Assembly: GCA_020346605.1 (NCBI GenBank) | Contig: CP070784.1 | Location: 262,236-326,235 of the forward strand | Source: Candidatus Bathyarchaeota archaeon | GTDB taxonomy: Archaea > Thermoproteota > Bathyarchaeia > TCS64 | Direction: 5' to 3' | DNA: 64,000 nt | Part shown: piece after piece, positions 30,845 through 46,775 of the stretch | How the letters are laid out: the number at the start of each line of letters is the position of its first letter | Numbering within the stretch: the first letter of the stretch is position 1 | Made by a program: the position numbers and the translations under genes | Notes under the pieces: model-generated | What the model was told of the DNA's origin: nothing | The model's input: the letters and a program-made list of their open reading frames with translations, nothing else | The model's database searches: none

Positions 30845-30891
30845 CCCAGAATCCTTTTTAGGCCAGAGTCCGCGGTGATATCTCTGTCCAC

Positions 30892-30967
30892 GGGGTCGTG
30901 GTCCAGCTTGGTCTAAGATTCGCGGCTCGGGTCCGCGAGATCCCCGGTTCGAATCCGGGCGACCCCA
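30892..30967 (+). tRNA. tRNA-Pro (anticodon CGG)
   Basis: A 76-base cloverleaf. The acceptor stem GGGGTCG pairs with CGACCCC, with discriminator A at 30967. The anticodon stem CGCGG/CCGCG encloses the loop CTCGGGT, so the anticodon is CGG (codon CCG). The T-arm is CCCGG-TTCGAAT-CCGGG. The D-stem is short, GTC with GAT. No intron is seen and CCA is not encoded. Confidence 0.95.
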
Positions 30968-31172
30968 CTTTTCGCGAATGCGGCTGGCATAGGATAAGCG
31001 TCTGTTGGCTGTGAACGATAGCTTATGAAAAGGTGTTTATTATTTCTGTGTTTCCTTATGCTGGTTTGGCATTGTATTAAAAGTATGAAGGCGTAATGGC
31101 GTGGTTAGAGGTTGTTCTCGGATTTAATTGAAACCCGGTTTTTAACTAATGGATTGTTTTTGATCTCTTGTG

Positions 31173-31595
31173 TTAGTGAGTTCTCCTGGTCACCACGGGG
31201 ATCTCGTTGAAGTCACTGTCGAAGCTGAATATCTCCTCCACTCCCATCTTCCTCATGACGAGGTACGCCAGCGTATCATTGAAGCCCAGCCCTAGGCGCT
31301 GAGACAGCGCCACCGCGGCTTTCACGTGATCCCCGGTGAGCGGATGGACCTTCAACGCGCTGAGACCCACAATCGCCTGGAGGATCGTAACAGCGAAGGG
31401 GTGGCTGACCCTTGCCTCAAGGATGTTCGCAACCTCAGATATATGCGCGGGGGTCGTCGCCACGGGCTCTCCGTCCTCGACCATCTGAAGTATCGACTGG
31501 GCTGCCCGCTTGATCTCCAGCTCGTGGCTCTGCAGCTTACGTCGAGGCTTAAGAATCGCGTAGATGAAGACGTTGCTGTCTATGAAGCAGGCTAC
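31173..31595 (-). pseudogene. PIN-domain (VapC-like) toxin lacking a recognisable start codon
   Basis: The frame encodes a complete PIN domain of about 140 residues: ACFIDSNVFIYAIL (first Asp), ISEVANILEAR (Glu), GFNDTLAYLVM (Asp) and IFSFDSDFNEIP (final Asp). All four metal-binding acidic residues are present. In frame, the sequence between the preceding TGA and the first domain residues offers only GTA where a GTG would be expected, at 31595. The gene overlaps the stop of the upstream antitoxin-like gene, the usual VapBC layout. The first internal start, at 31484, would remove the first catalytic Asp, so the toxin may be disabled, or the base call may be wrong. Confidence 0.7.
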
Positions 31596-31888
31596 CCCTC
31601 GTCACCTTTCAGCAGCTCTCGCTTTACCCGCTCCCAGTCGTCGAGGTCCGATTCCACATCCACAGGGACGGCGTCGAAGACTTTGCTGATCTTCAGAGTC
31701 TTGATGGGCTTGATGATAATCTCCTCTCCGTTCTGGATGACGGTGACCCTCCCCTCATGGTCCAGGTGTCGCCGCGCGCGCTCACCGAAGAGGACAAGGC
31801 CCTCCTCGCAGAGATGGAGGATCGTCGGTTTCTGCGTCTCTTGGCTTCTGTGGTTTCCAGGTATCTGCCCAAGTCTCTCCTTTTCCAC
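31592..31888 (-). CDS. Antitoxin-like protein (VapB/AbrB type)
   Basis: 98 residues. The middle section, LEEGLVLFGERARRHLDHEGRVTVI in outline, is followed by GEEIIIKPIKTLKISKVFDA and an acidic, helical tail DVESDLDDWERVKRELL. That tail pattern is typical of antitoxins whose C-terminus clamps a PIN toxin. Its stop codon overlaps the PIN frame directly downstream, supporting a toxin-antitoxin pair. The N-terminal 25 residues look unrelated to the family, so a downstream start is possible. Confidence 0.65.
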   Translation of the reverse strand: MEKERLGQIPGNHRSQETQKPTILHLCEEGLVLFGERARRHLDHEGRVTVIQNGEEIIIKPIKTLKISKVFDAVPVDVESDLDDWERVKRELLKGDEG

Positions 31889-31940
31889 CTATAATCGAGG
31901 AGTGCCCTTTGATTTCTAAACTTCCTAGCGCGAGTTATGA

Positions 31941-31950
31941 AAATTTAAAT
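31941..31950 (+). promoter_or_regulatory. TATA box of the 2-hydroxyacid dehydrogenase gene
   Basis: AAATTTAAAT is centred 25 bases before the ATG at 31971, which predicts a leaderless transcript. Confidence 0.6.
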
Positions 31951-31970
31951 AGACTTCTTGGATGTAATAA

Positions 31971-33008
31971 ATGCGAACTAAAATGAAGGTGCTATTTATA
32001 GGAGGCCGATGGGTCCGCCATCTAGAGCAGTCAGAGAAACTGAAGGAGCTTAAAAAATACGCCGAGATCGAAATAACCGCTGAAACCGACCAGGAAGCGC
32101 TGGCGGAAAAAGCCAAGGACGTTGATGTAATCAGTACAGGCGCGCCAGTTACAGCCACAATCATAGAAGCGGCGGAGAAGCTGATTCTAATACAGACCAC
32201 GACTGTAGGATACAACCGAATAGACTTGGCATCCGTTATAGAGAACGGGATAACCATCTGCAACGTCGCCGAAGCAAACGCAAACAGCGTCGCAGAACTC
32301 GTCTTCGGCCTGATCATAAGTGTGGCCCGACGCATCTCTGCACACGACCACCACATGAAATCGGGGAATTGGGGGCGCGTTGACTACGAGAGACAGGTCC
32401 AGATCCGCCACAAAACTCTGGGCATCGTTGGGCTAGGAGCAATAGGGAGTCGGGTCGCTCAGATAGGCAAAAATGCATTCGACATGGAGATCCTGGCCTG
32501 TGATCCTTACATTATACACGAGAGGGCCGACCAGTTCGGTGGCAAGCTGGTGGATCTGCACACGCTAATGACGGAATCAGATGTGGTCACTGTTCACGTA
32601 CCACTCAACGAAGAGACCAAGCAGATGATCGATATGGAGGAGCTGAAACTTCTCAAGCCATCGGCGATATTCATCAACACCTCGAGGGGTCCTGTCGTAA
32701 ACGAAGAGGCCCTGATAACGATCCTCAAGGAAAAGAGAATCAGCGGGGCCGGATTGGATGTGTTCGAGAACGAGCCTCTGCCCAAAGACAGCCCCCTCAG
32801 AGCCCTGGACAACGTCGTGTTGGTCCCCCATATAGGATCAGCCTTTGACGCCTCAAAGCGTATGGTCGAGGTCGCGATGGAGAATGTGCTCCGGGTAGCG
32901 AAGGGCTTGGAACCATTTAGGATTAAGACGCCGGAGACCTACTACACCAGCCCCAGATGGAAAAAGTGGTTATCATCTCGCGCGAAGGAATTAAGTGCAC
33001 ACTCCTGA
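31971..33008 (+). CDS. D-isomer-specific 2-hydroxyacid dehydrogenase (SerA/glyoxylate reductase type)
   Basis: 345 residues. The NAD motif is GIVGLGAIGSRVAQ. Catalytic residues lie in INTSRGPVVNE (Arg), GLDVFENEPL (Glu) and VPHIGSA (His). It interconverts a 2-hydroxy acid and a 2-oxo acid with NAD(H). The start is at ATG 31971, matched by a TATA box 25 bases upstream; ATG 31983 is an alternative. There is no ACT domain, so it is not the classic regulated SerA. It lies next to the aldehyde oxidoreductase/TPP block, which suggests a shared catabolic role. Slightly lower GC than the genes to its left. Confidence 0.9.
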   Translation: MRTKMKVLFIGGRWVRHLEQSEKLKELKKYAEIEITAETDQEALAEKAKDVDVISTGAPVTATIIEAAEKLILIQTTTVGYNRIDLASVIENGITICNVAEANANSVAELVFGLIISVARRISAHDHHMKSGNWGRVDYERQVQIRHKTLGIVGLGAIGSRVAQIGKNAFDMEILACDPYIIHERADQFGGKLVDLHTLMTESDVVTVHVPLNEETKQMIDMEELKLLKPSAIFINTSRGPVVNEEALITILKEKRISGAGLDVFENEPLPKDSPLRALDNVVLVPHIGSAFDASKRMVEVAMENVLRVAKGLEPFRIKTPETYYTSPRWKKWLSSRAKELSAHS

Positions 33009-33209
33009 CGGAACTCGGAACCCATCACTCTTTTCCAACAACCCATAATCTTCCTTTCCGCGCCCGCGAGGAACGGAAACGCGTTCAATGACTTAATGAA
33101 TTTTTCCGGCTTTATACAGTCCTCTCTTGGATGATTACAAACATCTAATCGTTGTACCTGAAAATCGGGATTCAAGGTTCGTAGACTAATTTAAAAGAAA
33201 AGAGGGGTC

Positions 33210-35066
33210 CTACTTTCTGAGTTGGGCTAGTGCGGCATCTACATCTTCTAGGCCAAGATTCTTGAGCTCCTCTGATGTGGGGATACCTCTGTCATCCCAG
33301 CCGAAATTGGCATACGCTGCCTTCCTCTGATCCATCAACTCGTCCCTGTCAGGCGCACGGCCCTTGAAGGGTCCACTGGGCAGAGGCTCGTACCACCTAT
33401 CTGGATTGTCATCGTCCTTCACCGGATCCCAGACAACATCGGGACCACCAAGTAGCAGGAGCGCCCTCTGGATTTGGATGATTCGTCTTCCGTTGACGTT
33501 TATCCACTCCTCCTGGGATATGTCCCATCCGGTAATGGCCTTCAGATATCTCCAGTTCAGGTTTTCGACACCCCGGATCTGGCCCATGGTGCATATGACC
33601 AGCGTGTCCCCTATGGTGCTCCCTGCCTCACTGAGCGGTGGTCTCGGCCTCGATGTGTGATCCCCACCAGAGACGGAAAGGGCGTAGCCCAGGTAGGGGC
33701 CATGTTCCCCCGTCCTTATACCGTGGGCGCCAACCTCTATTCCCTTGAAGTGGATAGCATACTTCATCACGTCGACACCCTTCATCTCAGAGATTGCCTT
33801 AGCCGCCCGGTAAGTTCCCTCAGCCAGTACGTCGCCTATCGCCCGTCTCTCGGCAATGAGCGTGGCAAGGTCACCCATCGCCTTTGCGTCCCCCCAAACC
33901 GGTTCAATGCCATCAAAATCCTCCTTTGTAAGGATGCCTCTCTGATAGAGCTCCGCAGCGAAGGCCATGGTGTTGGGGCCATTGATGCCGGAATGGCCGA
34001 GTTCGTCGATCACAGTTGCGACGTATATCACACCATCTGGGTCGTAGATGCCTAGGTTCGGCCCACAATATGCCCCCAATTCATAATCCGGGTTGTCTGT
34101 TATTGCTCCTTTCAGAGGACCCGTCTTAACGCAGGCAAGCTTCATGCAAGCCCTCGTGCATCCGAAGTCGCTCCAGTGTCTCTTCACCCAGTTCCTGGTC
34201 TCCAAATTTACGACGCCGATGCTCTTCTCATCATGCCACTCCTCCTGCCAGTTCCTCACGGGCTCAGCCGAAGCTTCGGCGCCAGTTGAGTAAGCTCCTG
34301 CACCGGTTCCCCACAGGTTCCTCTGCTTGTTGGCGAAAGCAGAATCGTAACCTAGCTCCATGAGCGCGGCCAGCTCCTTCGGATCAGCGACCTCTGGTAG
34401 AGGCCCCGTCCCTTTGGCAACTATGGCTTTAAGATTCTTAGAACCCATTACAGCGCCGTATCCACCAAATCCACAGGCATGTGACCACTTACCCATCACC
34501 GCCGCATTCCTTACCATGTTCTCGCCCGCTGGACCGATGTACAACAAACCAGGCTCCTTCCACAATCCGAAGCTTGCATCCCTTTCCGTTAGGAGGTCCC
34601 TGACATCCTTGTTTATGGCCTTGATGGTCTCCTTCCCCTGCAAGCCCCAGACGTTCTTAGCGTCCATGATCTCAATTTGATTGTCTGTTATCAGAAGGTA
34701 GACGGGTGAATCGGCTTTACCCTTGAGAATCACGCCGTCGAAGCCGGCGCACCTCATTTCGATGGGGAACTCGTGGCTACTCGTGGAGCCCACTGTGCCG
34801 TTAGAGAGAGGGGACTTTCCAGAGACGCATATCCTAACCCCGGTGTGATATCCCGTGAGGGGGCCAGTGAGGACTGTTAGAAGATTCTCCGGGCCCAAAG
34901 GGTCCACGCTCGCCCATTTACTCCCTAGTCTATCGAAGAGAATTTTCGCTGCCAGACCCCTCCCACCAATGTATTTCTTAAGAGTTTCCACATCAGGGTG
35001 TGAAGTTGAAACTTTGCCTTTGGTGAGGTCCACCTCAGCGATCTTGTCGTTATAACCAGGGATCAT
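33210..35066 (-). CDS. Tungsten-containing aldehyde:ferredoxin oxidoreductase (AOR family)
   Basis: 618 residues. The start (YNDKIAEVDLTKGKVS) and IGGRGLAAKILFDRL are the AOR N-terminal domain that binds the tungstopterin. [4Fe-4S] ligands are in GCTRACMKLAC and a later Cys in TLVICTMGQ. The FGGYGAVMGSKNLKAIVAKG block is characteristic. The enzyme would oxidise an aldehyde to the acid and reduce ferredoxin. Its ATG overlaps the stop of the upstream ferredoxin-like gene by 4 bases, so they form a unit. A MoaD/ThiS gene for pterin cofactor synthesis lies just beyond the ferredoxin. A T-rich tract follows the stop. Confidence 0.92.
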   Translation of the reverse strand: MIPGYNDKIAEVDLTKGKVSTSHPDVETLKKYIGGRGLAAKILFDRLGSKWASVDPLGPENLLTVLTGPLTGYHTGVRICVSGKSPLSNGTVGSTSSHEFPIEMRCAGFDGVILKGKADSPVYLLITDNQIEIMDAKNVWGLQGKETIKAINKDVRDLLTERDASFGLWKEPGLLYIGPAGENMVRNAAVMGKWSHACGFGGYGAVMGSKNLKAIVAKGTGPLPEVADPKELAALMELGYDSAFANKQRNLWGTGAGAYSTGAEASAEPVRNWQEEWHDEKSIGVVNLETRNWVKRHWSDFGCTRACMKLACVKTGPLKGAITDNPDYELGAYCGPNLGIYDPDGVIYVATVIDELGHSGINGPNTMAFAAELYQRGILTKEDFDGIEPVWGDAKAMGDLATLIAERRAIGDVLAEGTYRAAKAISEMKGVDVMKYAIHFKGIEVGAHGIRTGEHGPYLGYALSVSGGDHTSRPRPPLSEAGSTIGDTLVICTMGQIRGVENLNWRYLKAITGWDISQEEWINVNGRRIIQIQRALLLLGGPDVVWDPVKDDDNPDRWYEPLPSGPFKGRAPDRDELMDQRKAAYANFGWDDRGIPTSEELKNLGLEDVDAALAQLRK

Positions 35067-35602
35067 TCGAATAATTCCTCCCCTTTCTCACCGTAGAGGT
35101 TAATTACGAGATTTTTTGTGATTACCTCCGGTTTAATGGCGTACAGATCATAGTTTATAGAGGTCGTTCGGGTTCCTCTAAACAGTGCTCCGTAACCAGC
35201 CCGCTCACAGATCTTAGCGCACTCGGGGTCTCCACCGCAGAGGTCGCAGATGAGGGCGTGCCTCTTCTCGGGATGGAGGTGGGGCACCTGGCCGGGGCAT
35301 GCCTTAATGCAGGCCCCGCACGAGGTGCACTTCTCCTCGTCGACGATGACGGCGCCTGTATCGTCGTTCACCGAGAGTGCGTCGGCGGGGCAACTCGAGA
35401 CGCAGGGGTACTCGCTGCATTGAGCGCAGAGGTGGGGAACCTCGGCGCCGGGCACGAGCATGAATACCCTTATCCTGGAGGCCTCGGGCCAGATTCGACC
35501 CTCGTGCTTCATTGTGCAGGCGACCTCGCATAGCCTGCAGCCGCTACATCTGATGTAGTCCCTCACGACCCAGGGTTTCGTTACTCTAATAGGTCTGCTC
35601 AT
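35063..35602 (-). CDS. Four-cluster [4Fe-4S] ferredoxin subunit (HycB/DmsB type)
   Basis: 179 residues with four cysteine groups: CSGCRLCEVAC, CAQCSEYPCVSSCP, CTSCGACIKACP and CDLCGGDPECAKIC. This is the polyferredoxin pattern of the electron-transfer subunits of molybdo/tungsto-enzymes. It is encoded directly upstream of the AOR gene with a 4-base overlap, so it is very probably the electron acceptor or relay of that enzyme. It has no signal peptide, consistent with a cytosolic AOR. The C-terminal 40 residues are unique. Confidence 0.92.
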   Translation of the reverse strand: MSRPIRVTKPWVVRDYIRCSGCRLCEVACTMKHEGRIWPEASRIRVFMLVPGAEVPHLCAQCSEYPCVSSCPADALSVNDDTGAVIVDEEKCTSCGACIKACPGQVPHLHPEKRHALICDLCGGDPECAKICERAGYGALFRGTRTTSINYDLYAIKPEVITKNLVINLYGEKGEELFE

Positions 35603-35754
35603 ACAGAATAAACCTCCTACCTTGCATCTCTCTGTTTAAATAAATTATTTTCTATGTGTTGTGATAGGTAATGTCTAATAATCGGAGGGATGAGTTTACC
35701 CGTTAGATCAAATCAACGGGAGTCCAGCAACTGAGTTACAAGGAGTTAGTGGCC

Positions 35755-35997
35755 ATGATCACGGTGGAGGTCAAGCTGTACGCGTCGTTGAGGAGCTATT
35801 TTCCCAAGGGAAAACGAGACGAAGCCTTGGCTATAAGCTTGAGTGATGACGTATCCCTGGAGCAGCTTTATGCGTACCTCAACATTCCATTAGAGGAGGT
35901 TGTGGTGGCCCTCGTAAACGGCCTTGCTAGGGCTGATAATTATGTGCTGCAGAACTCGGATAAAATCGACGTCTTCCCTTCGATAGCCGGAGGTTAG
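35755..35997 (+). CDS. MoaD/ThiS family sulfur-carrier protein
   Basis: 80 residues, a beta-grasp fold ending in the required Gly-Gly (FPSIAGG). Sequence features such as VKLYASLRSYFPKG and SLEQLYAYLNIP match the MoaD/tungsten-cofactor group more than ThiS. The C-terminal glycine would be adenylated and thiocarboxylated to donate sulfur to molybdopterin. I use the ATG at 35755, with AGGAG 9 bases upstream (a GTG at 35749 is too close to it). Its position beside the AOR-ferredoxin pair, divergently transcribed, fits a tungstopterin role. Confidence 0.85.
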   Translation: MITVEVKLYASLRSYFPKGKRDEALAISLSDDVSLEQLYAYLNIPLEEVVVALVNGLARADNYVLQNSDKIDVFPSIAGG

Positions 35998-36253
35998 AGG
36001 AGTTCAGCAGCACAACTTCATGATACTCTCATAGATAACTTGCCTCTCGAACTTGTCTCCCCCTTTTGAAACAGGAAGGGCACGCGCCTATGCGCACACC
36101 GCACGGGCAACATGGCTCCGCTACCAGGCTCCCTCAATCGTGCGGACACCCACACCCATAGCGTGGCAGCGCAGCCACGAGGAAACTCTTCTGGGCCCAA
36201 CCGTGAACCGGGTTAAAATGTGGCAGGGTTCCCTATCTTGTTGCTGACACGTA

Positions 36254-37900
36254 TCATGCAGGTATGCGACTACTTATGCGGTCCACCTCGAAACTAGTTA
36301 TTACCTCAATCAGGGCTGGTCTGCCTGCCTTTACCTCCTTGATTCCTCTTTTCAGAGCGGGTATGATTTCGTCTGGTTCAATGACTCTCTCACCATAGCA
36401 CCCTAAGGACTCTGCCATGGCAGCATAGCTGATGACTGAGCTCGGCGATACGACCTTCTTGTTGATCGCCTCTGGTAGCCTAGACGTTTCCCTTGTGCTG
36501 TACACAGCATACCCTGAGTTGTTGCTCACGACGGTCAATATTGGTAGATTCTCCCTTAAAGCGGTCTCAATCTCCACGGAGTTGTGCCCCATGGCGGCGT
36601 CCCCGACCCAGTTCACGCACAGTTTCTTGGGCCACATTAGTTTAGCGGCCATGGTGGCACCCCAAGAGAAGCCAAGATTCGTCGTGTGCCCCCAACCCAG
36701 ATAGCTACCTGGAACTATTGACTCCCAGATGGCTGTAAGCTGTTCGCGCGGATTGCCGGATTCGTGTGTTATGAACAGGTTTTTCCTATCGAATGTCTGC
36801 ATCATGTCCCAAATGACCCTGTACGGGTTGATGGGCATCTCGCTGGAGGTGAGTTTGGGCATCCACTCGTTTAGCTGAAGCTCCTTCTCTCTCGCAATTT
36901 CTTCTTCGAGCTTTTCGTTTATCTTACGCCCGCTACCATTGGTCTGGTTCTTCACCTCTTCGATCAGTTGTCTAAGAACGAGCTTGGCGTCCCCTAGGAC
37001 GGCGTGTTTCACTTTGTGGTAAAGGTTTACGTCATATTCCCCTATGTTACACAGGATGATATTTTTCCCTGGTGGCACGGGTGCGCTGAAAGATCCAGAC
37101 AGACTCGTGCCGATACCAAAAACTAGATCGGCCCTGCCAAGACACATCCACTGGGCTCTCCCCCTCATCCCAGCGGACAGGTGATGATTTTCTGGAAACG
37201 CGCTTTTCCCCTTGATACTCGTGATTACTGGCACTTTGACGAGCTCGACGAACTCCATCAGCTCACTGGCCGCATCGGCTCTGAGAACACCGTCGCCTAT
37301 GTAAAGGACGGGCGCCTTCGCACGGAGAAGAGCGCGAGCGGCGATCTCAATGTCGCGAGGATCTGCTTGGTATTTCCAGCCCACAACAGGCTCGTAGCTG
37401 AAATCCGAGTCAGGGAGCTCCCCCGATAGGACGTTGCCCATCAGCTCAAGGAGAACCGGTGAAGGTCTACCCGTCCTCAACCTAGTGTATGCGATCCGCA
37501 TGAGAGCGGAGACACGTTCTACGCTGTCAAGGCGAGCGCTCCATTTGGTGGTACATTCAAAATTCTTCGTTGAATCCCACACCCTCTTATCTAATTGTCT
37601 CATCCGGTGTCCGCAAGGAATCATGAGCATTGGCGAGAGATCGTCAAAGGCTTGCCCTAGAGCTCCAAGAATGTTGTGTGCCCCCCACCCCGACTGACAC
37701 ATAGCGACCCCATTCTTATGTCCCATGGACAACCTCGTATAGGCATCCGCCATTGCGACGGCCGTTCTCTCGTGTCTCGTCGTTATTACCCTTATGCCCT
37801 CATCCAGCAGTTCCCCTGTGACGGGGACAAAGGGGTAATGCGCAACGAAATCAGTACCTTCCATCTTCAATATTTTAGCTAGAACTTGTCCGCCCTTCAA
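36254..37900 (-). CDS. Thiamine-diphosphate-dependent enzyme (acetolactate synthase/2-oxoacid decarboxylase family)
   Basis: 548 residues. The cofactor-activating Glu lies in ITTRHERTAVAMADAYTR. The TPP/Mg motif is VNWVGDAAMGHNSVE, ending in VVSNNSGY. Three domains (Pyr, central, PP) have normal order and length. Members include acetolactate synthase, oxalyl-CoA and benzoylformate decarboxylases and sulfoacetaldehyde acetyltransferase; the active-site outline does not settle which. It starts at TTG 37900 (MKGGQVLAKILK). It is near AOR, 2-hydroxyacid dehydrogenase and a D-amino-acid lyase-like gene; a decarboxylase producing an aldehyde for AOR is an attractive inference. Confidence 0.88.
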   Translation of the reverse strand: MKGGQVLAKILKMEGTDFVAHYPFVPVTGELLDEGIRVITTRHERTAVAMADAYTRLSMGHKNGVAMCQSGWGAHNILGALGQAFDDLSPMLMIPCGHRMRQLDKRVWDSTKNFECTTKWSARLDSVERVSALMRIAYTRLRTGRPSPVLLELMGNVLSGELPDSDFSYEPVVGWKYQADPRDIEIAARALLRAKAPVLYIGDGVLRADAASELMEFVELVKVPVITSIKGKSAFPENHHLSAGMRGRAQWMCLGRADLVFGIGTSLSGSFSAPVPPGKNIILCNIGEYDVNLYHKVKHAVLGDAKLVLRQLIEEVKNQTNGSGRKINEKLEEEIAREKELQLNEWMPKLTSSEMPINPYRVIWDMMQTFDRKNLFITHESGNPREQLTAIWESIVPGSYLGWGHTTNLGFSWGATMAAKLMWPKKLCVNWVGDAAMGHNSVEIETALRENLPILTVVSNNSGYAVYSTRETSRLPEAINKKVVSPSSVISYAAMAESLGCYGERVIEPDEIIPALKRGIKEVKAGRPALIEVITSFEVDRISSRIPA

Positions 37901-38216
37901 AATTTGTCACACATCCAACCGTTTTTTAGTATAAATAATTTTACGCGCACGTGCGCCAATTATTGAAGCAACCTGAACGTAAGGGTGTAATCCACTATCA
38001 CGCGACTTGAGTGTCGCACGTATGCAATTTTCTTGACCACGTCCAAGGACCAGCACCAGACAAAATCAACTCCATGAGAACCTCTGAGTACCTATCCTCC
38101 GAAGGCAAGGAATCTTCTATCGACAACAGTAGTAAACAAACACACCGCCACCACATAATCAGTGGGCTCAGTCAGACATGCGTAATAAAAAATAAGATGT
38201 GTGTAGGAGATGTTTT
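37901..38216. other. Intergenic stretch without a supported gene
   Basis: About 316 bases between the TPP-enzyme start and the stop of the PLP lyase-like gene. It begins AT-rich with TATA-like text (TTTTTTAGTATAAATAA), which could serve the TPP gene. Short frames in it have no family similarity or coding bias. I see no structured RNA or repeat. Confidence 0.5.
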
Positions 38217-39356
38217 TTAATAATACTTCCCTCTAGCCGTGATCGGCCAGATTGCAGCTACTTTTTCATCTTTGACGACGTACAAGTTGTCATGTTGATT
38301 TACGCATGTGCAGCAGTGGCTTGGTATAAATTCAATTTTCTGACCCCATCTCAACGTTTTTCTAACACTGTTATTCGGGGTAAACCTAATTGTTCCATGT
38401 TCCTCGGATAGCCCAACGTTTTCGTATTCATCAAGGTTCAGCATTTCGCCATCTATTCTTACTTTTACACGGGGTGTTGCGCGCGCGTTACCTGCGGACA
38501 TGACTTTCAAACCCGCGTCAGTGACTACTCTGTCGGAAAAGTTTGCACCGATTATTTGTGTGAGCACCGATAGAGATGACTTAAAGAACACGTCGTTTAC
38601 TGCTCTCCAGGCATATCCCGAGCCCTCCTCACCTGCACCGAATACGAATGACCCTGGTTCGATTTCTGTGATTCCTGGATAGGTCCCTGTTACTTCATAT
38701 GTTCCTGTGGATCCCGCGCTGACTATCTCAACCTCTATACCAACATCTCGAATCATGTTGGCTGTGTCGACTGTTAGTTTGTTTCTTTCGAGCGCAGTTT
38801 CTCTAGGAACGGGGTTCTCGTACCCATAAATCCCCCTGAATTTGAGGTTTTTTAAGGATACAACTTTTTTAGCTAAATCGACCACAGGTTTACCTGGGGC
38901 AACGCCGCATCTTCCTTGCGTCATCTCTATAATAACATGCTGCGTTACACCCCAATTTGAGGCAGTTTTTGACAGAAGCTCGGCCTGCTCAACATTTTCA
39001 ATAGCAGTGAGAACCTTGCCTTCGCCCATCGCAACATTTAAACCGACTAGCTTTTCTGTTTTCGCAGGATCGGCGATCTCCTGGCTGATCAGTATATTCT
39101 TGTCTCCATACAGAATCCCGGAATTTAGTAGAACCTCGGCCTCGCCAAGTTTCTGAGTCATGATTCCGATAGCTCCAGCATCCAACACCTTGTTGCATAT
39201 GGCTGCGGCCTTGAACGTCTTTGCGTGAGGTCTTACATTGACACCTGACTCCTTTGCGAATTTGAACATCTTGTCTATGTTCCACTGGAATTTGTCCAAG
39301 TCGAGAAGTAAAGCTGGTGTCTCCAACTCATAGATAGATTTTCCTATTTGATACAT
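38217..39356 (-). CDS. D-threonine aldolase/D-serine dehydratase-like PLP enzyme (alanine-racemase fold)
   Basis: 379 residues. The PLP lysine is in NVRPHAKTFKAAAI, at the start of an alanine-racemase-type barrel, and ETPALLLDLDKFQWNIDKM is the usual N-terminus. The C-terminal beta domain carries the metal-binding His/Cys pair, FIPSHCCTCVNQHD, that defines the DSD1/D-threonine-aldolase group. It would cleave a D-3-hydroxy amino acid to an aldehyde plus glycine, or dehydrate D-serine to pyruvate. Both outputs connect to neighbouring genes. The gene is notably AT-richer than those before it, and marks the left edge of the AT-rich island. Confidence 0.88.
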   Translation of the reverse strand: MYQIGKSIYELETPALLLDLDKFQWNIDKMFKFAKESGVNVRPHAKTFKAAAICNKVLDAGAIGIMTQKLGEAEVLLNSGILYGDKNILISQEIADPAKTEKLVGLNVAMGEGKVLTAIENVEQAELLSKTASNWGVTQHVIIEMTQGRCGVAPGKPVVDLAKKVVSLKNLKFRGIYGYENPVPRETALERNKLTVDTANMIRDVGIEVEIVSAGSTGTYEVTGTYPGITEIEPGSFVFGAGEEGSGYAWRAVNDVFFKSSLSVLTQIIGANFSDRVVTDAGLKVMSAGNARATPRVKVRIDGEMLNLDEYENVGLSEEHGTIRFTPNNSVRKTLRWGQKIEFIPSHCCTCVNQHDNLYVVKDEKVAAIWPITARGKYY

Positions 39357-39497
39357 TGTGACCTTCAGATGTTTAGTTTTATTCTTTATAATTTTATCGC
39401 TAAGATCATATTTAATTAAAAGTTTTAATTATTATTTGGTTTCGGCGTCCTAAAATACTTAATTAAAGTTATTGATCAACAGGCCACGTAGACAAAA

Positions 39498-39614
39498 ATG
39501 ACCGCCCTCAGGGACTACATGTTCAGAAAAGCCCAAGAATATCGGGAGGAACGGAGCAAGTTTATCCGTTTCTACGACTTCAAAGTCGTTGAAGCCTTCA
39601 GACCCATCATTTGA
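39498..39614 (+). pseudogene. Possible transposase fragment
   Basis: A 38-codon frame starting MTALRDYMFRKAQEYREE and ending DFKVVEAFRPII. The charged, helical sequence followed by FYDFK..EAFRP resembles the start of some archaeal IS transposases, but similarity is by eye only. No inverted repeats of an IS were found around it. Its GC content is above that of its surroundings. Confidence 0.3.
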
Positions 39615-39647
39615 CCAATCTGCCACAACATTACACTACGGAGAGAG

Positions 39648-39667
39648 AGGCGCGCGTAATCGCGCCT
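39648..39667. repeat. Perfect 7-bp inverted repeat (hairpin)
   Basis: AGGCGCG and CGCGCCT flank a 6-base loop. It lies downstream of the possible transposase fragment and could be an IS end, a terminator stem or a regulatory hairpin. It is followed by an A-run rather than a T-run on the plus strand, so a terminator on that strand is not supported. Confidence 0.4.
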
Positions 39668-39777
39668 GCTACAAGAAAAAAAAAGTAAATCTGAATCCTA
39701 GATAATTTTTTAAACTTATGCAAATAATTATCCAAACCATTGCGCGAGGGAAAAACTCTAAATCGCGCACGGCGTAA

Positions 39778-39788
39778 AATGATAAATT
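39778..39788 (+). promoter_or_regulatory. TATA-like box of the mutL operon
   Basis: AATGATAAATT is centred about 24 bases before the ATG at 39807, predicting a leaderless mutL transcript. Confidence 0.5.
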
Positions 39789-39806
39789 CGATCATGGGAT
39801 GGTTTT

Positions 39807-41642
39807 ATGAACGTCGAAAAGATGGAGATAATATTAGCCACTGATTGTGGAAGTACAACTACTAAGGCCCGTCTGTTTAGAAAGATCGGTGACGAATACC
39901 GATTTGTGTTCTCAGGCGAAGCACCGACCACTGTAGAAGCCCCGTATGAAGATGTTACAATGGGCGTACGAAACGCTGTTCGTGAGATAGAAGAACTTTC
40001 AGGCATTAAAATCCTGAGCGAAGATGGGATAATAAAACGTAAGACATCAGAGGAAGCTGGAATCGACCTCTATGTCACTACAAGCTCAGCAGGGGGCGGG
40101 CTACAGATGATGGTCTTTGGGGCAACTCAGAGCATCACTGGAGAGAGTGCACATCGCGCAGCCCTGGGAGGCGGTGCTATTGTAATGGATGTAATCTCTG
40201 TCGACGACGGAGTCCCAATTTATAAGAAGGTGAGACGTACACGCCATCTAAGACCAGACATAGTGCTGATGGCCGGAGGCACAGATGGGGGCGCTTCTCG
40301 CCCGGTCATCCAAACCGCTGAAATTCTCAGAATAGCTGAGCCTAAAGCCAGGTTTGGCGCAGACTATGAGCTGCCTGTAATTTTCGCAGGAAATAAGAAT
40401 GTTCGAGAGCAGGTGGAAAAAATTCTTGACAAGTTTGCTTTGTCCATCGTAGATAATCTTCGCCCTGTAGTCGAACTCGAGAATACAGATCCTGCCAGAA
40501 ACGCTATTCAACTTCTATTTATGGAGCACGTAATGTCCCACGCACCAGGATATGACAAATTAATGAAGTGGACTGAAGTGCCGATCATGCCAACCCCAAT
40601 GGGTGAGGGCATGATGTTCCAGACGATGGCGGATATGTGGAAAATCAATGTAATTGGTGTTGGTTTAGGCGGCGCAACAACGAACATCTATTCAATTTTC
40701 GATGAGAGATTTGTAAGGACTGTGAGCGCCAACCTAGGAATGAGCTATAGCATTTGTAACGTCCTTCGAGAAACGGGCATGAAGAACATTCTTCGATGGA
40801 TGCCGTTCGATGTTGATGAAGATACACTAGGAGACATACTGACTGACAAGATGATTCGTCCAACAAGCCTCCCTCAGACATTGGAGGAACTTATCATCGA
40901 ACATTCTGTAGCAAGAGAGGCCCTGCGATTGGGCATGATTCACCACAAGTTTCTAGCCAAGGGATTGAGGGGAGTGAGGCCACCAGATTCATTAGATAAC
41001 ATACTTGAGCGTACGGTGGAAGGGGCAGAGAGCTACATTGACATGTTGAGAATTCATCTCGTAGGTGGCACAGGAGGGCTTCTGTCCCATGCACCCAGAA
41101 GGGTTCAGAGCGCATTAATTCTTATGGATGGTTTTCAACCAGAGGGCATTACAACGCTTGTGCAAGACAGCGTCTTCATGATGCCTCATCTTGGCGTCCT
41201 GTCAACAGTACATAAAAAGGCTGTAATGAACATCTTTGAAAAGGACTGTTTGGTTCGACTAGGAACGTGCATTGCGCCTAAAGGCCTACCATCGAGACAG
41301 GAAAAAGAAGTTATGACCGTCGATATGGTCATGCCCGATGGTAGTAATAGATCAGAAACCCTTGACCTTGGAGACTTGATCAGGGTTCCACTGGATGTAG
41401 GCGAGATCGCTACTGTAAAGATTACACCCAGTAAAGACTGTGATGTGGGAGCGGGCATGGGACATACTTTAGAATCAAAAGTTGAGGGAGGAATCGCTGG
41501 GATCCTTTTGGACGCTCGAGGTAGGCCTGTTCAAACACCAGAAGATAGAACTGAAATGAAGAAACTTCTTCTCAAATGGTTCAAATCAGTGGATATGTAT
41601 TCACTGGATGTTCTGAGTAACATCGAAGGGAGTGTGATGTAA
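39807..41642 (+). CDS. MutL/GlmL-type ASKHA ATPase, large form
   Basis: 611 residues. Actin-like ATPase motifs are clear: phosphate-1 ATDCGSTTTKARLF near residue 11, phosphate-2 VGVGLGGATTNIYSIFDERF in the middle, and the adenosine motif LVGGTGGLLSHAPRR. These match MutL/GlmL, the protein encoded with B12-dependent glutamate mutase and thought to protect or activate it. The protein is longer than classic GlmL, about 460 residues, with a beta-rich C-terminal extension (RVPLDVGEIATVKITPSKDCDVG). No glutamate mutase gene (GlmS/GlmE) is in the window. It heads an operon with a barrel/KOW protein, so it more likely serves the membrane proteins opposite. AT-rich codon use. Confidence 0.88.
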   Translation: MNVEKMEIILATDCGSTTTKARLFRKIGDEYRFVFSGEAPTTVEAPYEDVTMGVRNAVREIEELSGIKILSEDGIIKRKTSEEAGIDLYVTTSSAGGGLQMMVFGATQSITGESAHRAALGGGAIVMDVISVDDGVPIYKKVRRTRHLRPDIVLMAGGTDGGASRPVIQTAEILRIAEPKARFGADYELPVIFAGNKNVREQVEKILDKFALSIVDNLRPVVELENTDPARNAIQLLFMEHVMSHAPGYDKLMKWTEVPIMPTPMGEGMMFQTMADMWKINVIGVGLGGATTNIYSIFDERFVRTVSANLGMSYSICNVLRETGMKNILRWMPFDVDEDTLGDILTDKMIRPTSLPQTLEELIIEHSVAREALRLGMIHHKFLAKGLRGVRPPDSLDNILERTVEGAESYIDMLRIHLVGGTGGLLSHAPRRVQSALILMDGFQPEGITTLVQDSVFMMPHLGVLSTVHKKAVMNIFEKDCLVRLGTCIAPKGLPSRQEKEVMTVDMVMPDGSNRSETLDLGDLIRVPLDVGEIATVKITPSKDCDVGAGMGHTLESKVEGGIAGILLDARGRPVQTPEDRTEMKKLLLKWFKSVDMYSLDVLSNIEGSVM

Positions 41643-41666
41643 ATTTCATACGCATATACCCCTGGT

Positions 41667-42773
41667 TTGAAGGTAAAAAAGGATACATTAGTTACTAAAA
41701 GGAGATTGCTGCCCATTGCTGGAGAAGTATTAGTCCAAGAAAATGAGGAAGTAGTCCACGATACCATAATTGCTAGAACATTTGTTCCAGGGGATATCGA
41801 AATGATACCTCTTTTCTACATATTGGGAGTCGAGCCCTATTCATTGCCTGACGCTGTATTGAAGAAAGAGGGGGACATCATTAATGAAGGAGAATTACTC
41901 GCCATTTCGAAGTCCTTTTTTGGTCTTTTTAAAACAGAATATGTTTCAGAAATTACAGGTACTATAGAACTTATCTCGGACGCAACCGGGATGGTAGGTA
42001 TAAGACACCTTCCTATTCCAATTAACTTGGATGCTTACATATCTGGAAAAGTCACCGAAATCATCCCTAAACAAGGTGTTGAAATCGCACACATGCATGC
42101 AACTTTCGTGCAGGGAATTTTTGGAGTTGGTGGCGAAAACCATGGTGAAATATTGATTATAGCTGAACCAGAGGAAGAATTGACTTTACGGCATATAGGT
42201 AATGACTGTAATGGAAAAATAATCGTTGGTGGATCACAGGTTACAGCTGAAGTCCTTAACAAAGCTCAGGAAGAAAACACTAAGGGTATTGTAACAGGCG
42301 GCATTAGGCGTGTAGATTTGACTAAATTCCTAGGATATGAGATGGGTGTAGCAATCACAGGACACGAAGAGATCGACATAACATGCTTAATTACTGAAGG
42401 CTTTGGTAAAATGGCAATGGCTAAACATACTTACGAACTCCTCAAATCTTGTGAGGGAAAACTTGCTTCCATCAACGGTGCGACACAAATAAGGGCAGGC
42501 GTCATAAGACCAGAGATAATTATCCCAATGGAGAAATCCGAGATAGACAGCTCCAAGGTGGAAGATGACGTCCTTGCTGATGGCATGTATCCTGGGACAA
42601 GGGTGAGAATTATTCGTAGGCCATACTTTGGGGCGATAGGAACCATCAAAAATCTACCTCCTGAGTTACAAAAAATAGAGACGGAATCTTTAGTACGAGT
42701 GATGACCATACAATTAGACGATAATCGCGTGGTTACTGTTCCTAGAGCAAACGTAGAGATTATGGAGGAGTGA
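41667..42773 (+). CDS. Barrel-sandwich/KOW-like protein associated with MutL
   Basis: 368 residues, starting at TTG 41667, 24 bases after the mutL stop. Residues about 50-130 have repeated short beta patterns (VLKKEGDIINEGELLAIS, GLFKTEYVSEITGTIELIS, AYISGKVTEIIPKQGVEI) like lipoyl/biotinyl barrel-sandwich domains. A middle alpha/beta part reads GKIIVGGSQVTAEVLNKA and GIVTGGI. The C-terminus has a KOW/SH3-like turn, YPGTRVRIIRRPYFGAIGTI. No known family name is certain. No signal peptide or TM helix. Its position immediately after mutL and its AT-rich codons tie it to the same system. An adaptor or complex-assembly role is inference. Confidence 0.7.
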   Translation: MKVKKDTLVTKRRLLPIAGEVLVQENEEVVHDTIIARTFVPGDIEMIPLFYILGVEPYSLPDAVLKKEGDIINEGELLAISKSFFGLFKTEYVSEITGTIELISDATGMVGIRHLPIPINLDAYISGKVTEIIPKQGVEIAHMHATFVQGIFGVGGENHGEILIIAEPEEELTLRHIGNDCNGKIIVGGSQVTAEVLNKAQEENTKGIVTGGIRRVDLTKFLGYEMGVAITGHEEIDITCLITEGFGKMAMAKHTYELLKSCEGKLASINGATQIRAGVIRPEIIIPMEKSEIDSSKVEDDVLADGMYPGTRVRIIRRPYFGAIGTIKNLPPELQKIETESLVRVMTIQLDDNRVVTVPRANVEIMEE

Positions 42774-42787
42774 AACAGGGTAATCAA

Positions 42788-43150
42788 ATGTCTCAACCAA
42801 ATACCATTTTCTCACGGATAAGAGAATTCTTCAACAATCTATTTGATGATTCTCCTATCGAAATATCCTCTGAAAGGGAAGAGGAAATTATAAACAAAGT
42901 CGTTAATTCAGTTACACGATTTGACTTAGAACTTCCATTTTTATTAGTTGGTAGACCTTTCATACCTACATCTACATTAATTAGTGAAGTTATAATAGCA
43001 CCATTTGCTGGTTTTCTAGAGATGTTCGGTGTAAATGGTTTCGAGTTGGTGGCCTTTCTAAACAAGAAAGATAATCTTAGACGTTTAATGAATAAGATAG
43101 AAGAGATTAAAGAAGCTAAAGAAACTGATGTGCATTTGAAAAAGTCATAG
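42788..43150 (+). CDS. Small protein of the MutL operon
   Basis: 120 residues from the ATG at 42788 (MSQPNTIFSRIREFF), with AGGG 7 bases upstream; a GTG at 42770 overlapping the previous stop is an alternative. An amphipathic N-terminal helix is followed by an acidic region, a hydrophobic stretch (LPFLLVGRPFIPTSTLISEV) and a charged helical tail. It looks membrane-associated rather than spanning. No family is recognised. Very AT-rich codon use. The gene ends about 90 bases before the stop of the convergent membrane-protein operon. Confidence 0.65.
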   Translation: MSQPNTIFSRIREFFNNLFDDSPIEISSEREEEIINKVVNSVTRFDLELPFLLVGRPFIPTSTLISEVIIAPFAGFLEMFGVNGFELVAFLNKKDNLRRLMNKIEEIKEAKETDVHLKKS

Positions 43151-43239
43151 GAAAAAAGATACCATTTCTTTCATTGATCTATGATGTGCGAATCTATTTT
43201 GGATAATAGAAAAAGGGTTGGGTTAATTGTGCTTTTATT

Positions 43240-43875
43240 TTATCCGTAAAAGCCTTGAAGTGCACGAACGGTTCTTAGGACTATTGTTATGATTGTACTG
43301 CTGAGCGCGTCTATTCCTTCTGCTACGAAGGTTGAGGCGTACAGATAACCGAAGCCAGCAAACAGGACAAGACGCCCTATTTTTGCGATAAATCCGAAAG
43401 TACCTACATGGACAGGGTCTGAATATTTAGCTGAGTAAGTGAAGTAGAACAGGACAGCGATACAGCCCAATAGAGATATTACAGCCGATACCGGGTCTGG
43501 AGTGAATGAAACGAAATCAGTTATTATTCGCTGCACTCCAGCGATGATTTGACCTCTAATTGTAGATCCAACTGTAACCCCGAGACCAACGCCAGACAAT
43601 ACTGCGACAGGGTAGCGGGCAAGCCATCTATACTTGGTCCACCTGGAGAATGCCATTAATCCTATGATTACTGGCAGTATCATTAGATATCCTGTACTGA
43701 CCCAAGACCCTTGTAAGCTTCGTAGTATTGCGAATAGTCCTACAGCAATGCCTCCGCCAATGAAAATAGCCTCACTTGTGGCGAACCAGTAAGTTTCTCC
43801 GATAAAGGCATAGCTGAATGTACCTAAAGACAAGAACACTCCAAGTAACATTACTATTGTTTCAAACGGCGTCAT
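43240..43875 (-). CDS. Multi-pass membrane protein (last gene of four-gene membrane operon)
   Basis: 211 residues with about five or six hydrophobic segments (TIVMLLGVFLSLGTFSYAFI, IFIGGGIAVGLFAIL, LMILPVIIGLMAF, VISLLGCIAVLFYF, LVLFAGFGYLYAST). It lacks motifs of known transporters or enzymes. The start overlaps the stop of the preceding gene by 4 bases. The protein ends with short loops and no large soluble domain. It is probably a core component of the membrane complex encoded by this operon. Confidence 0.75.
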   Translation of the reverse strand: MTPFETIVMLLGVFLSLGTFSYAFIGETYWFATSEAIFIGGGIAVGLFAILRSLQGSWVSTGYLMILPVIIGLMAFSRWTKYRWLARYPVAVLSGVGLGVTVGSTIRGQIIAGVQRIITDFVSFTPDPVSAVISLLGCIAVLFYFTYSAKYSDPVHVGTFGFIAKIGRLVLFAGFGYLYASTFVAEGIDALSSTIITIVLRTVRALQGFYG

Positions 43876-44714
43876 GCTCTCACACCCGTCATTTCTCTTT
43901 CCTCCTTTCTCTTACTGTAATGTGCAAGGTTTCCAAGAATTACAGTAATGAAGACTAAGGCTGCTCCGATGTTCCTGAACTGGAATCGTAGTATTGACTC
44001 GCCTTGAAACCCCGTCAAATACATGAACTCGGCTACTCCTCTTGTTCGGTCAAGCACACCTTGGACATATATTCCGTAGTATATCGCAATTTGTTGGAAG
44101 CCGTAATTGTTCACCATGGGCATTTCATGTCTTATGGCCCATTGCCTGACATACATTGGTTGCCAGCTAAAGCCTCCTCCATCGCACATGGTAAGCTGAG
44201 CATCTGAGATGACGTGAATATTCTCGTAGATCGGGATTTCTGAGATCGGTGTCCCGAACATATCTGTTCCAGGATACCACATGTCGTCGCCGACCATGGC
44301 TATAACTGACTCCTCACCAGCGAGGAATGGTGTGACAACCCAGTCGACTCCGTACACATAGCCATAGTCTTCTGATTTCGCATAGTCAGTCATGAATTTG
44401 TAAAAGTTCGATGGAGATGCTGGACCAAATGATATCATTATGATCTTCAACTGTCTTTCCATTAGGTATTGCATTATGGCTGTGGTTTTAGTTAGACCGG
44501 CTCGTGCACGGGCTATAGTAGCCATATTATGGCCCCAAACGACCACATCGCCCGGCTCTAACTTGTCAATCTGAGCTACATAGTCGTAGGTCCATGAACT
44601 GACTTTCATGGGCATTGTTACTGGAAATAGCATGTATGCAATAGTCAAGATTGTATAGAAGACTGCCAACTTTTTCGGGGTGAACTGGTCCACTAGTTTC
44701 TGTAAAGCACTCAT
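43872..44714 (-). CDS. Membrane-anchored protein with a large extracytoplasmic-looking domain
   Basis: 280 residues. One N-terminal hydrophobic segment (LAVFYTILTIAYMLFPVTMP) and one near the C-terminus (NIGAALVFITVILGNLAHY) enclose a soluble domain of about 200 residues. That domain has alpha/beta text, LEPGDVVVWGHNM, QLKIIMISFGPASPS and ESVIAMVGDDMWYPGTDMFG, with conserved-looking His, Asp and Gly. With both termini positive, the domain is predicted to face outside. It overlaps both neighbours by 4 bases. No family is recognised; the fold might be Rossmann-like (inference). Confidence 0.75.
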   Translation of the reverse strand: MSALQKLVDQFTPKKLAVFYTILTIAYMLFPVTMPMKVSSWTYDYVAQIDKLEPGDVVVWGHNMATIARARAGLTKTTAIMQYLMERQLKIIMISFGPASPSNFYKFMTDYAKSEDYGYVYGVDWVVTPFLAGEESVIAMVGDDMWYPGTDMFGTPISEIPIYENIHVISDAQLTMCDGGGFSWQPMYVRQWAIRHEMPMVNNYGFQQIAIYYGIYVQGVLDRTRGVAEFMYLTGFQGESILRFQFRNIGAALVFITVILGNLAHYSKRKEEREMTGVRA

Positions 44715-45382
44715 TTGGTTGCCTCCATTTCTATCAATCCTGGCTCCTTCCCAACCAGTGCTCGAATGGCCAAGATCACAATGCCTATACCAGCTGCTAT
44801 CATTACCCCACGGTTAGATGCCATGTACGGTGTTTTCATTATCCAGTCTCCGATGACTTCGATTTGTGGGAAGAACACAACCATAGTAGCCATTTCTCTC
44901 AAGACGATGAAAAACCAGACTGCTAGCATTACAAATGACTCTGGACTAGTTATTTTGAACATTCTTGCAGGCGATGAATAGTGACTGATCCATTCTAGTA
45001 CTGTGCCGACTCCAGCCATAGCTATAATATTGGAATACCAGAATATGAACATTGGTCCTGCGTTTCCTTTGCCTTCGTAAAGTCCTATCGCCAACATTGC
45101 GACAAACGTAGCCATCACGATGACACTCTTGTAAATAAGGCGGTTGTACCCTTCTGATCTGTACTGAGAAATTCGTCGTACGTGCATCCGCATTAGGGTC
45201 AGATAACCAAAAAGCAACTGGAGTATTGCGATTATAGCTCCCCAAGATAGAAATTGTGAAGAGAGGTCTGTTATAACCGGAGTTTTGACAGCATAGTATT
45301 CTATCAATAGAACAGCCATGAAGAAAGAGACAACGAGAATCGGTATCTGTCTCCGATAGATTGATGCAGACATGTTTATCAT
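44711..45382 (-). CDS. Multi-pass membrane protein
   Basis: 223 residues with about five or six TM segments (IPILVVSFFMAVLLIEYY, WGAIIAILQLLFGYLTLM, IVMATFVAMLAIGLY, SFVMLAVWFFIVLREMATM, GVMIAAGIGIVILAIRALV). A cytosolic loop RMHVRRISQYRSEGYNRL is highly basic. It has a 4-base overlap with the downstream gene and a single-base gap to the upstream one. No family is recognised from motifs. Confidence 0.75.
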   Translation of the reverse strand: MINMSASIYRRQIPILVVSFFMAVLLIEYYAVKTPVITDLSSQFLSWGAIIAILQLLFGYLTLMRMHVRRISQYRSEGYNRLIYKSVIVMATFVAMLAIGLYEGKGNAGPMFIFWYSNIIAMAGVGTVLEWISHYSSPARMFKITSPESFVMLAVWFFIVLREMATMVVFFPQIEVIGDWIMKTPYMASNRGVMIAAGIGIVILAIRALVGKEPGLIEMEATK

Positions 45383-45383
45383 C

Positions 45384-46163
45384 TCATAGGTTCAACCAAT
45401 CTAGGACGGGGAAGCCAGCTAGAGCCATTATTCCCCCGATGACTGTGACCAGTACAATGATCCATTTGGCAACGTCCCCGCCAATTAGAGTCGATTCTAC
45501 CATGGGGTCTCCTGAAACAAGAGCACCAGCAGAATAGACATCGTCCATTGACAAGAAATAATCGGAGAACATGGCGAATGTACCATTCATCCCCCATCTT
45601 GCTGTGCCCGTGAGGGTTATCGCCCCCTGCATCCGTGCTAGTCCCGACGGACCAGAGACTGAGCTCTGATTTGCACCCACGGCAACCCATAGAGCGCATC
45701 CGTGAGACCCGAGCACTCCTAAGCTGCCAAGGGAATATGCTGACTCGTTGTTACCGCTGTAGATTATGTCATCTCGTCTGTATGCTTCTGGCTTTCCTTC
45801 TGTTACACACACTTCCCTGAATATACCGTCCATTAGAGATATGACTTCAGGAAGTTGTGGTACAAGTCCAAAGATGCGTGCACCTCTGCGAACGGCTAAA
45901 GTGGCTGTATACCTGAAGATGTTCATGCCTGCAATTGTCATTGGAGCATACATACCTGAAAGGTATGCAATGTTACCTGCACTGGCAATTACGGGCAATC
46001 CCATCTCAACAGCTCTGTCAACGCCTTCCGAGATAGCTTCTAACTGAGGCAAAGACCGTAGTTTCATCCGTTTACCTTGAAGAGCCCAATTCAGATAGTA
46101 TAATGCAGGTATTGCAGTGGCAAGTAGAGTTAGTAAATCGACTATTTTTCCTTCAGCGATCAA
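45384..46163 (-). CDS. DUF6754-like membrane protein (first gene of four-gene membrane operon)
   Basis: 259 residues. An N-terminal hydrophobic helix is followed by a cytosolic-looking alpha/beta domain (LPQLEAISEGVDRAVEMGLP, MNIFRYTATLAVRRGARIFG, SLGVLGSHGCALWVAVGA) and a C-terminal TM segment (WIIVLVTVIGGIMALAGF). The LPQLEAI.EG...A.EMG.P phrase recalls the DUF6754 family, which has no known function; I recall this from memory and could not search. The start TTG at 46163 is preceded by a strong GGAGG, and a TATA-like AATATAAAT lies near 46201-46209. Confidence 0.75.
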   Translation of the reverse strand: MIAEGKIVDLLTLLATAIPALYYLNWALQGKRMKLRSLPQLEAISEGVDRAVEMGLPVIASAGNIAYLSGMYAPMTIAGMNIFRYTATLAVRRGARIFGLVPQLPEVISLMDGIFREVCVTEGKPEAYRRDDIIYSGNNESAYSLGSLGVLGSHGCALWVAVGANQSSVSGPSGLARMQGAITLTGTARWGMNGTFAMFSDYFLSMDDVYSAGALVSGDPMVESTLIGGDVAKWIIVLVTVIGGIMALAGFPVLDWLNL

Positions 46164-46775
46164 TTTTTTCTTTCCTCCGCATCCAAAAATCTTTTATCTT
46201 ATTTATATTATTTAACAATTTCGTGATATTACGCTGAAATGTCATAAAAAATTAATAATATACTATAAATAAATGTTAAAAAAAATAATATTATAAAGTT
46301 ATGCATGTAATTCTGAGAAAAGAGCCTCTTAACCTGTGGCACCCTTCTAGTCACAGGAGGTGAATCCGTACCCAGACTGGACGAACACGAGATCCTTGAA
46401 ATCCTCTTCCAGAACACAGAGTTAGGCCTTGCCGAGAGAATGTACCTAGGATGCTACCAAACCACATGCCCCTACAGGCCACTCCGGAATCCCCCGGACT
46501 TTCTCCGGGCCTTCACGGTAATGAGCATATAGGTGATTACAACTAGTACAGCAGCGGGAGGATGAGGAGACAGGTTGACAATGCGAAGGTCCTCGGCATG
46601 GCGAATCAGAGGCGGCGTATTGATGTGTTGCTGGTGGACAGGGAGTTCAGGATCAACGTGCCAGAAGATAAGAGGATGAAGTACCATGTGCATCTTGTGG
46701 AGGGGGGGCGCAACTTCATCACCACGTGTGAATATATACTGATAGCGGAATGATATTCCACCAGGAGGATCGGAC
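46164..46775. other. Intergenic stretch: promoter of the membrane operon plus possible mobile-element debris
   Basis: About 612 bases. The left part is very AT-rich and holds the TATA-like box and GGAGG of the minus-strand membrane operon. From about 46320 it becomes GC-richer. A startless frame at 46318-46533 (containing LDEHEILEILFQNTELGLAERM) and a 63-codon frame at 46562-46753 look like gene fragments. No intact gene is present. Confidence 0.5.
46562..46753 (+). pseudogene. Possible DDE transposase fragment
   Basis: A 63-codon frame with RIDVLLVDREFRINVPED, whose LLVDREF resembles the second Asp motif of some archaeal DDE transposases. No upstream or downstream catalytic motifs and no terminal repeats were found. 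It would be a decayed remnant on the right edge of the AT-rich island. Confidence 0.3.

Follow-up and report, generated by a model that had tools for sequence, protein, structure and literature searches.

A long MutL-type ATPase, a barrel/KOW protein and a DUF6754 membrane cassette form a widespread archaeal and bacterial system that may be an ATP-driven importer

What does a MutL-type ATPase do when it is encoded beside an operon of four membrane proteins? The question is raised by positions 39807-46163 of a 64,000-nucleotide stretch from a Candidatus Bathyarchaeota archaeon (GCA_020346605.1, contig CP070784.1, positions 262,236 to 326,235), here called the window, which is part of a 2.3-Mb single-contig archaeal genome. 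A preliminary description made from the sequence alone listed seven open reading frames (ORFs) in this interval, and every one is found at its claimed coordinates. We refer to them as A (MutL), B (the barrel/KOW protein), C (a small protein), D, E and F (membrane proteins) and G (DUF6754). A, B and C lie on the plus strand, with B and C overlapping by 4 bases. The genes D to G lie on the minus strand, where D/E and E/F each overlap by 4 bases and F and G are separated by 1 base. Among the seven proteins Pfam names just A (MutL) and G (DUF6754); a Pfam scan of C, D, E and F returned no family.

The genes were originally proposed to be one system, and this is borne out in other genomes: they are co-operonic in bacteria, and among Bathyarchaeia genomes they tend to occur as a set or to be missing as a set. 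The genes F, E and D come next after G, in this order, for 98 of the 111 G genes collected, with median gaps of 11.5, 2.5 and 0 bases within this cassette. B comes directly after 71 of 73 MutL genes, B runs into G at 20 loci, and complete C-A-B-G-F-E-D single operons are found in Fermentibacteria, Zixibacteria, Acidobacteria and others. The convergent layout is a property of the window locus and not a general trait, as the copies elsewhere in the genome and in bacteria are co-directional. G genes at loci L217, L225 and L226, in two bacterial genomes, have no detectable F-E-D neighbours.

Among 61 Bathyarchaeia genomes, 30 carry DUF6754, with up to 15 copies; 32 carry B, a single one of them as a weak fragment; and 31 carry MutL, in one case as a weak match below the cut-off. 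G and B are both present in 28 of these genomes and both absent from 28, with 5 discordant (Fisher p 9e-12); for B and MutL the figures are 30, 30 and 1. The carriers of the three genes are nearly identical sets of genomes, from one order and one outlier. Scanning 84,980 genomes with B brought up no fewer than 554 relatives. The archaeal ones come from Bathyarchaeota and Culexarchaeum, and the many bacterial ones from groups including Zixibacteria, WOR-3/Stahlbacteria, Fermentibacteria, Eisenbacteria, Hydrothermota, Bacillota, Armatimonadota, Acidobacteria, Marinimicrobia, Latescibacterota, Planctomycetota and CSSED10-310; B was not found on plasmids. In 50 other genomes picked via B, MutL is present in 49 and G in 47. 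Besides Bathyarchaeia, a dozen or more bacterial phyla have the system. Co-occurrence of MutL with the membrane genes, which had been anticipated, is seen per genome, with the qualification that most cassettes do not adjoin a MutL gene. At the genome level MutL is not tied to a glutamate mutase, nor are the membrane genes free of MutL in most genomes, so that neither of the two refuting conditions set in the preliminary description was observed. Because operons and co-occurrence hold across genomes, we regard the seven genes as a genuine functional unit. Their association is far beyond chance, and we regard it as nearly certain that the system exists; it is ancient, widespread and undescribed. 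A literature search that excluded most subscription journals and all preprints returned no publication on DUF6754, PF13941, PF20539 or an ASKHA-driven transporter.

The copy numbers of the parts differ. Genomes carry between 1 and 27 cassettes (27 in one Bacillota metagenome-assembled genome, MAG) and usually 1-2 MutL-B pairs, which may stand alongside up to 9 cassettes. Cassettes exceed MutL in most genomes, with G/MutL ratios in individual genomes of 6/1, 5/1, 9/2, 7/1 and 27/7. Cassette proteins within one genome are about 26-45% identical, whereas A and B of the archaeal copies are mostly 50-62% identical to those of the window.

A (39807-41642, plus strand) is a long MutL-type ASKHA ATPase of 611 residues. 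It matches PF13941 over residues 9-481 with 355 bits (cut-off 27) and is a member of the MutL family. Its nucleotide motifs (D13-C-GSTTTK20, GGATT at 288-292 and GTGG at 421-424) are of the ASKHA kind, and such motifs are intact in nearly all of 68 aligned long MutLs. The long extra C-terminus that had been pointed out in A corresponds to residues 482-611, is specific to the system and is conserved in this alignment, in which just two cysteines, C14 and C481, are commonly conserved. Against the NCBIfam equivalogs A falls well below the cut-offs, with 179.2 bits for GlmL (cut-off 475) and 178.8 for Or-4 (cut-off 600). The long MutLs form a clade apart from the short ornithine-mutase MutLs with support 100, in a quick tree whose long branches limit the deep placement of the MutL clades. 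The short MutLs have 451-495 residues in Bacillota genomes, where they lie between OraE-like and ornithine-racemase-like genes, and some of these genomes carry both forms. A profile of the long MutLs scores the short ones at about 155-167 bits and full-length system members at roughly 750-1100. By these sequence comparisons the MutL of the system is a long subfamily, distinct from the MutL of B12-dependent mutases. It shares the ASKHA core and a PF13941 match over cut-off with GlmL and Or-4 of glutamate mutase and ornithine aminomutase, but it exceeds them in length by about 150 residues, its C-terminus is conserved, and it pairs with B and the membrane cassette, not with OraE or GlmE. Independence from glutamate mutase had also been claimed, and GlmE (PF06368) has no match over cut-off in the window genome or in 60 relatives (0 of 61 genomes). 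An accessory role to glutamate mutase was rejected on this ground, GlmE being found over cut-off in no system-bearing relative. Other B12-binding proteins are present in the window genome, far from the locus.

B (41643-42773, plus strand) comprises a barrel-sandwich domain (RnfC_N/lipoyl-like), a central alpha/beta region and a C-terminal KOW domain, as judged from its alignment, from Pfam matches of family members and from translation across the stop codon of A. Its initial description as a barrel/KOW protein agrees with a Pfam search of ten relatives, seven of which match the RnfC barrel-sandwich domain (best E 1.1e-5) and one the SPT5 KOW domain; the window's own copy has no Pfam match over threshold. 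The listed ORF starts with TTG at 41667 and drops the conserved N-terminal motif AYTPGLK. This motif is coded in frame immediately past the TAA of A, where ATT is the sole plausible start, so the rare codon ATT at 41643, abutting A, is the more likely true start of B. An alternative for positions 41640-41670 is stop-codon readthrough that would join A and B into a fusion. C (42770-43150, plus strand) has 126 residues with one hydrophobic stretch by hydropathy. Its homologues were found with phmmer and hmmsearch at other loci, where they lie before A, after B or after D.

The four membrane proteins form the cassette. D (43240-43875, minus strand) is a multi-pass protein with about 6 transmembrane (TM) helices and is the conserved final gene; F (44711-45382, minus strand) is a multi-pass protein with 6 TM helices and is the conserved second gene. 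G (45384-46163, minus strand) belongs to DUF6754 (PF20539; 90.9 bits, cut-off 27), a family that had no assigned function, and is here the first gene of a four-gene cassette with defined topology and partners. It consists of an alpha/beta domain between two TM helices. Bacterial homologues of G start with a segment resembling a signal peptide, and they also have an FN3 domain (PDB profile match 3.8e-12) ahead of the first TM helix; the N-terminus is therefore placed outside and the DUF6754 domain is predicted to face the cytoplasm. E (43872-44714, minus strand) also has two TM helices, with an alpha/beta domain of about 200 residues between them. Both of its ends are positively charged, so this domain is predicted to be extracytoplasmic, in line with the outward-facing part proposed for it originally, and E is the predicted substrate-facing subunit. 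Of 5 genome sets, 2 have E as the protein with the lowest identity among paralogues and a third has it tied for lowest, its lower identity being clear in only part of the sets.

Good AlphaFold2 models were obtained for E (predicted local distance difference test, pLDDT, 83.8; predicted template modelling score, pTM, 0.81) and G (pLDDT 87.9, pTM 0.85). Both have the same order of elements, a TM helix, a stretch of helix alternating with six strands, and a second TM helix, on opposite sides of the membrane. As a suggestion only, from the models, E and G may be an inverted pair with a common fold. Profile comparisons of E with G and of F with D showed no sequence similarity. A fold search with the two models gave generic alpha/beta matches only, which were therefore not used for function. 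When profiles of A, B, D, E and F were run against PDB sequences, none of them had a relative there, and only the FN3 part of bacterial G was matched.

We hypothesise that the system is an ATP-driven uptake transporter in which a shared MutL-B motor serves several cassettes. Its ATPase would be of a family that is not known to power transport. Transport, energisation and the physical complex are inferred, and we give the proposal about an even chance of being right. Different cassettes would import different small organic molecules, such as amino acids, peptides, N-acyl amino acids and other amides, and organic acids. The substrate would be caught by the extracytoplasmic domain of E, D and F would make the membrane path, and the cytoplasmic domain of G would be the docking face for B and MutL. 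Binding and hydrolysis of ATP by MutL, with the clamp motion of ASKHA proteins, would be relayed through B and power the conformational cycle. The parts list suggests a primary active importer, with one domain facing outward and another inward, two multi-pass proteins, and an ATPase in the cytoplasm together with a coupling protein. Nutrient uptake is suggested because the cassettes are multi-copy and divergent while MutL and B are few and conserved, and because the operon neighbours of the cassettes are enriched in amidohydrolases, with peptidases.

Among the neighbours in the same operon run, 10 of 82 are amidohydrolases; a control of 93 random genes, taken from some of these genomes, has at most 1 (p = 0.003). 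The operon neighbours also include M20, M19, M28 and S58 peptidases and DUF885. By eye, genes for creatininase, MlrC-like proteins, aminotransferases, LarA-like proteins, keto-acid ferredoxin oxidoreductase and hydantoinase recur near cassettes. We take the enrichment as supportive and not conclusive, since the gene calls are mechanical, the loci non-independent and the control small. At the window locus one flank encodes a DSD1/3-hydroxy-D-aspartate-aldolase-like enzyme and the other an M55 D-aminopeptidase, and these genes fit the catabolic pattern of cassette neighbours.

Several observations weigh against an importer. Neither the E model nor the G model has a match to a solved structure at E <= 0.001, and no substrate-binding fold was recognised in them. 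Some cassette neighbours have no connection with amides (CO dehydrogenase/ACS, glycine cleavage, AOR). In the window genome there are five MutL copies to five cassettes, one of the MutLs having lost its P-loop, and three B-bearing MAGs (two Armatimonadota and one Bacillota), which may be incomplete, have no G at all. The number of cassettes is not anticorrelated with that of peptide ABC binding proteins (rho -0.13, p 0.47), and a replacement of peptide ABC importers by cassettes was rejected on this result.

The alternative that survives best lies nearest to the preliminary description, which saw the ATPase as an assembly or gating factor for a membrane complex and the barrel/KOW protein as its adaptor. 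The G-F-E-D cassette would then be an ion-gradient transporter, with MutL-B assembling, repairing or gating it and not acting as a motor. Known relatives of MutL are accessory proteins of B12-dependent mutases, and a single MutL-B pair per several cassettes would also suit a chaperone. However, a stoichiometric part is suggested by the presence of a barrel/KOW partner, by the extension conserved at the C-terminus of MutL and by the operons shared with cassettes in many phyla, and no ion-binding motif was identified, though no systematic search was made. Copy numbers and catabolic neighbourhoods favour a shared transport motor over a dedicated assembly factor, and we consider this alternative unlikely, if a serious one.

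The cassettes could also belong to a machine for export, secretion or envelope building, with paralogues for separate cargoes of lipid, glycan or protein. Four membrane proteins, an extracytoplasmic domain and the FN3 domain of bacterial G are compatible with this. The neighbours are mostly catabolic hydrolases rather than envelope or glycosylation genes, however, and up to 27 paralogues per genome suit nutrient uptake better, which makes export improbable.

ASKHA relatives power low-potential electron transfer, and MutL might similarly be an archerase-like ATPase (compare BcrA/RACo) of an ATP-driven membrane redox complex with B as an RnfC-like subunit. The N-terminal part of B weakly matches the RnfC_N/NqrA_N barrel-sandwich domains. 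B differs from RnfC and NqrA in ending in a KOW domain, and no Rnf or Nqr membrane subunits are encoded at the locus; members of D, E and F gave no match to Rnf/Nqr families and no convincing match to a redox family. Conserved cysteine pairs or iron-sulphur motifs were not found, MutL having just the two cysteines given above and the alignment of B none, and we consider a redox role very unlikely. A membrane sensor that regulates the adjacent catabolic genes would account for the position of the paralogues beside such genes; no kinase, cyclase or DNA-binding output domain was found in any of the seven families, and four membrane subunits with an ATPase seem excessive for sensing, so that this is more improbable still. 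That the seven genes are unrelated neighbours brought together by chance might be suspected from the two convergent halves on opposite strands in the window, and is refuted by the same parts being co-operonic in two domains of life and co-occurring in genomes.

The importer proposal has a precedent in group II energy-coupling factor (ECF) transporters, in which, as outlined in PMC3246461, A/T modules are shared. The copy numbers given above would fit such sharing. By analogy, one MutL-B motor would serve several cassettes as the shared ATPase module does there, and in both cases many substrate-specific membrane modules would be scattered over the genome. The present system differs in having an ASKHA ATPase and a four-gene cassette, with no EcfT or S-component family recognised. 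None of the seven window proteins matched an ABC ATPase family, and neither did the relatives of B, D, E and F.

ATP-driven uptake in prokaryotes is generally regarded as relying almost wholly on ABC-type ATPases. The system may be a new class of primary active transporter, in archaea and bacteria, in which a MutL-type ASKHA ATPase and a barrel/KOW coupler power interchangeable four-subunit import modules; we put this just on the doubtful side of even. If true, a large family of importers with many paralogues would run on a second, unrelated ATPase fold, which would add something basic to membrane biology. The feeding of sediment lineages that degrade peptides and amino acids would then be accounted for, and DUF6754 and five unnamed families would gain a function. 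Copy numbers of up to 15 in Bathyarchaeia and 27 in the Bacillota MAG imply that a sizeable share of the membrane proteome of these cells currently lacks annotation. The linked enzymes make predictions of substrates directly testable.

Variants of the MutL-B pair were also observed. A fifth pair in the window genome (L037:9179-11861, at C1:649 kb of that genome) has no cassette; its MutL has lost the DxGST P-loop and its B has no KOW domain. Copies of B cut where this one ends recur in many relatives, which suggests that there is a conserved subfamily, degenerate or repurposed, next to an amidase. Six Bacillota loci (L071, L074, L089, L110, L119 and L130) have tandem MutL-B pairs, in which a second MutL clade (A-prime) with a longer B (about 450 residues) lies beside the standard pair. 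These are possibly heteromeric motors, by analogy with EcfA/EcfA-prime.

Two further groups of proteins recur at the loci. An unnamed family of about 300 residues with the motif LGLRxxxxIxxPAELP follows cassettes or MutL-B at 8 loci in archaea and Bacillota (for example L046:2817-3698, L058:15030-15911, L066:9304-10248 and L110:10248-11258) and is a possible eighth component. Small membrane proteins of about 130-170 residues (DYMAGAMLANGFIWIW-like) recur beside archaeal cassettes (for example L047:960-1373, L046:7436-7909, L062:12643-13035 and L053:8126-8641), and some of them cluster together.

The preliminary description noted that the seven genes are AT-rich compared with the genes on either side. 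This is correct for the right side, where the GC content at third codon positions (GC3) is 0.76-0.92, compared with 0.27-0.50 in A-G. It does not hold for the left side, where GC3 stays low as far as about 31 kb (the adjoining DSD1-type gene has 0.46 and the four genes preceding it 0.60-0.70). An Rfam scan of 31-48 kb of the window gave no match. No att-like repeat of at least 12 bases links the tRNA-Pro region (30861-31060) to the rest of the window, and an integrative element at this tRNA was rejected for that reason. The AT-rich island (31000-46400) starts directly past tRNA-Pro (30892-30968), and its GC3 is 0.27-0.70, compared with 0.89 in the gene immediately to its left. It holds genes for a 2-hydroxyacid dehydrogenase, an AOR, a ferredoxin, a thiamine pyrophosphate enzyme and the DSD1-type enzyme together with the seven system genes, and it looks horizontally acquired.

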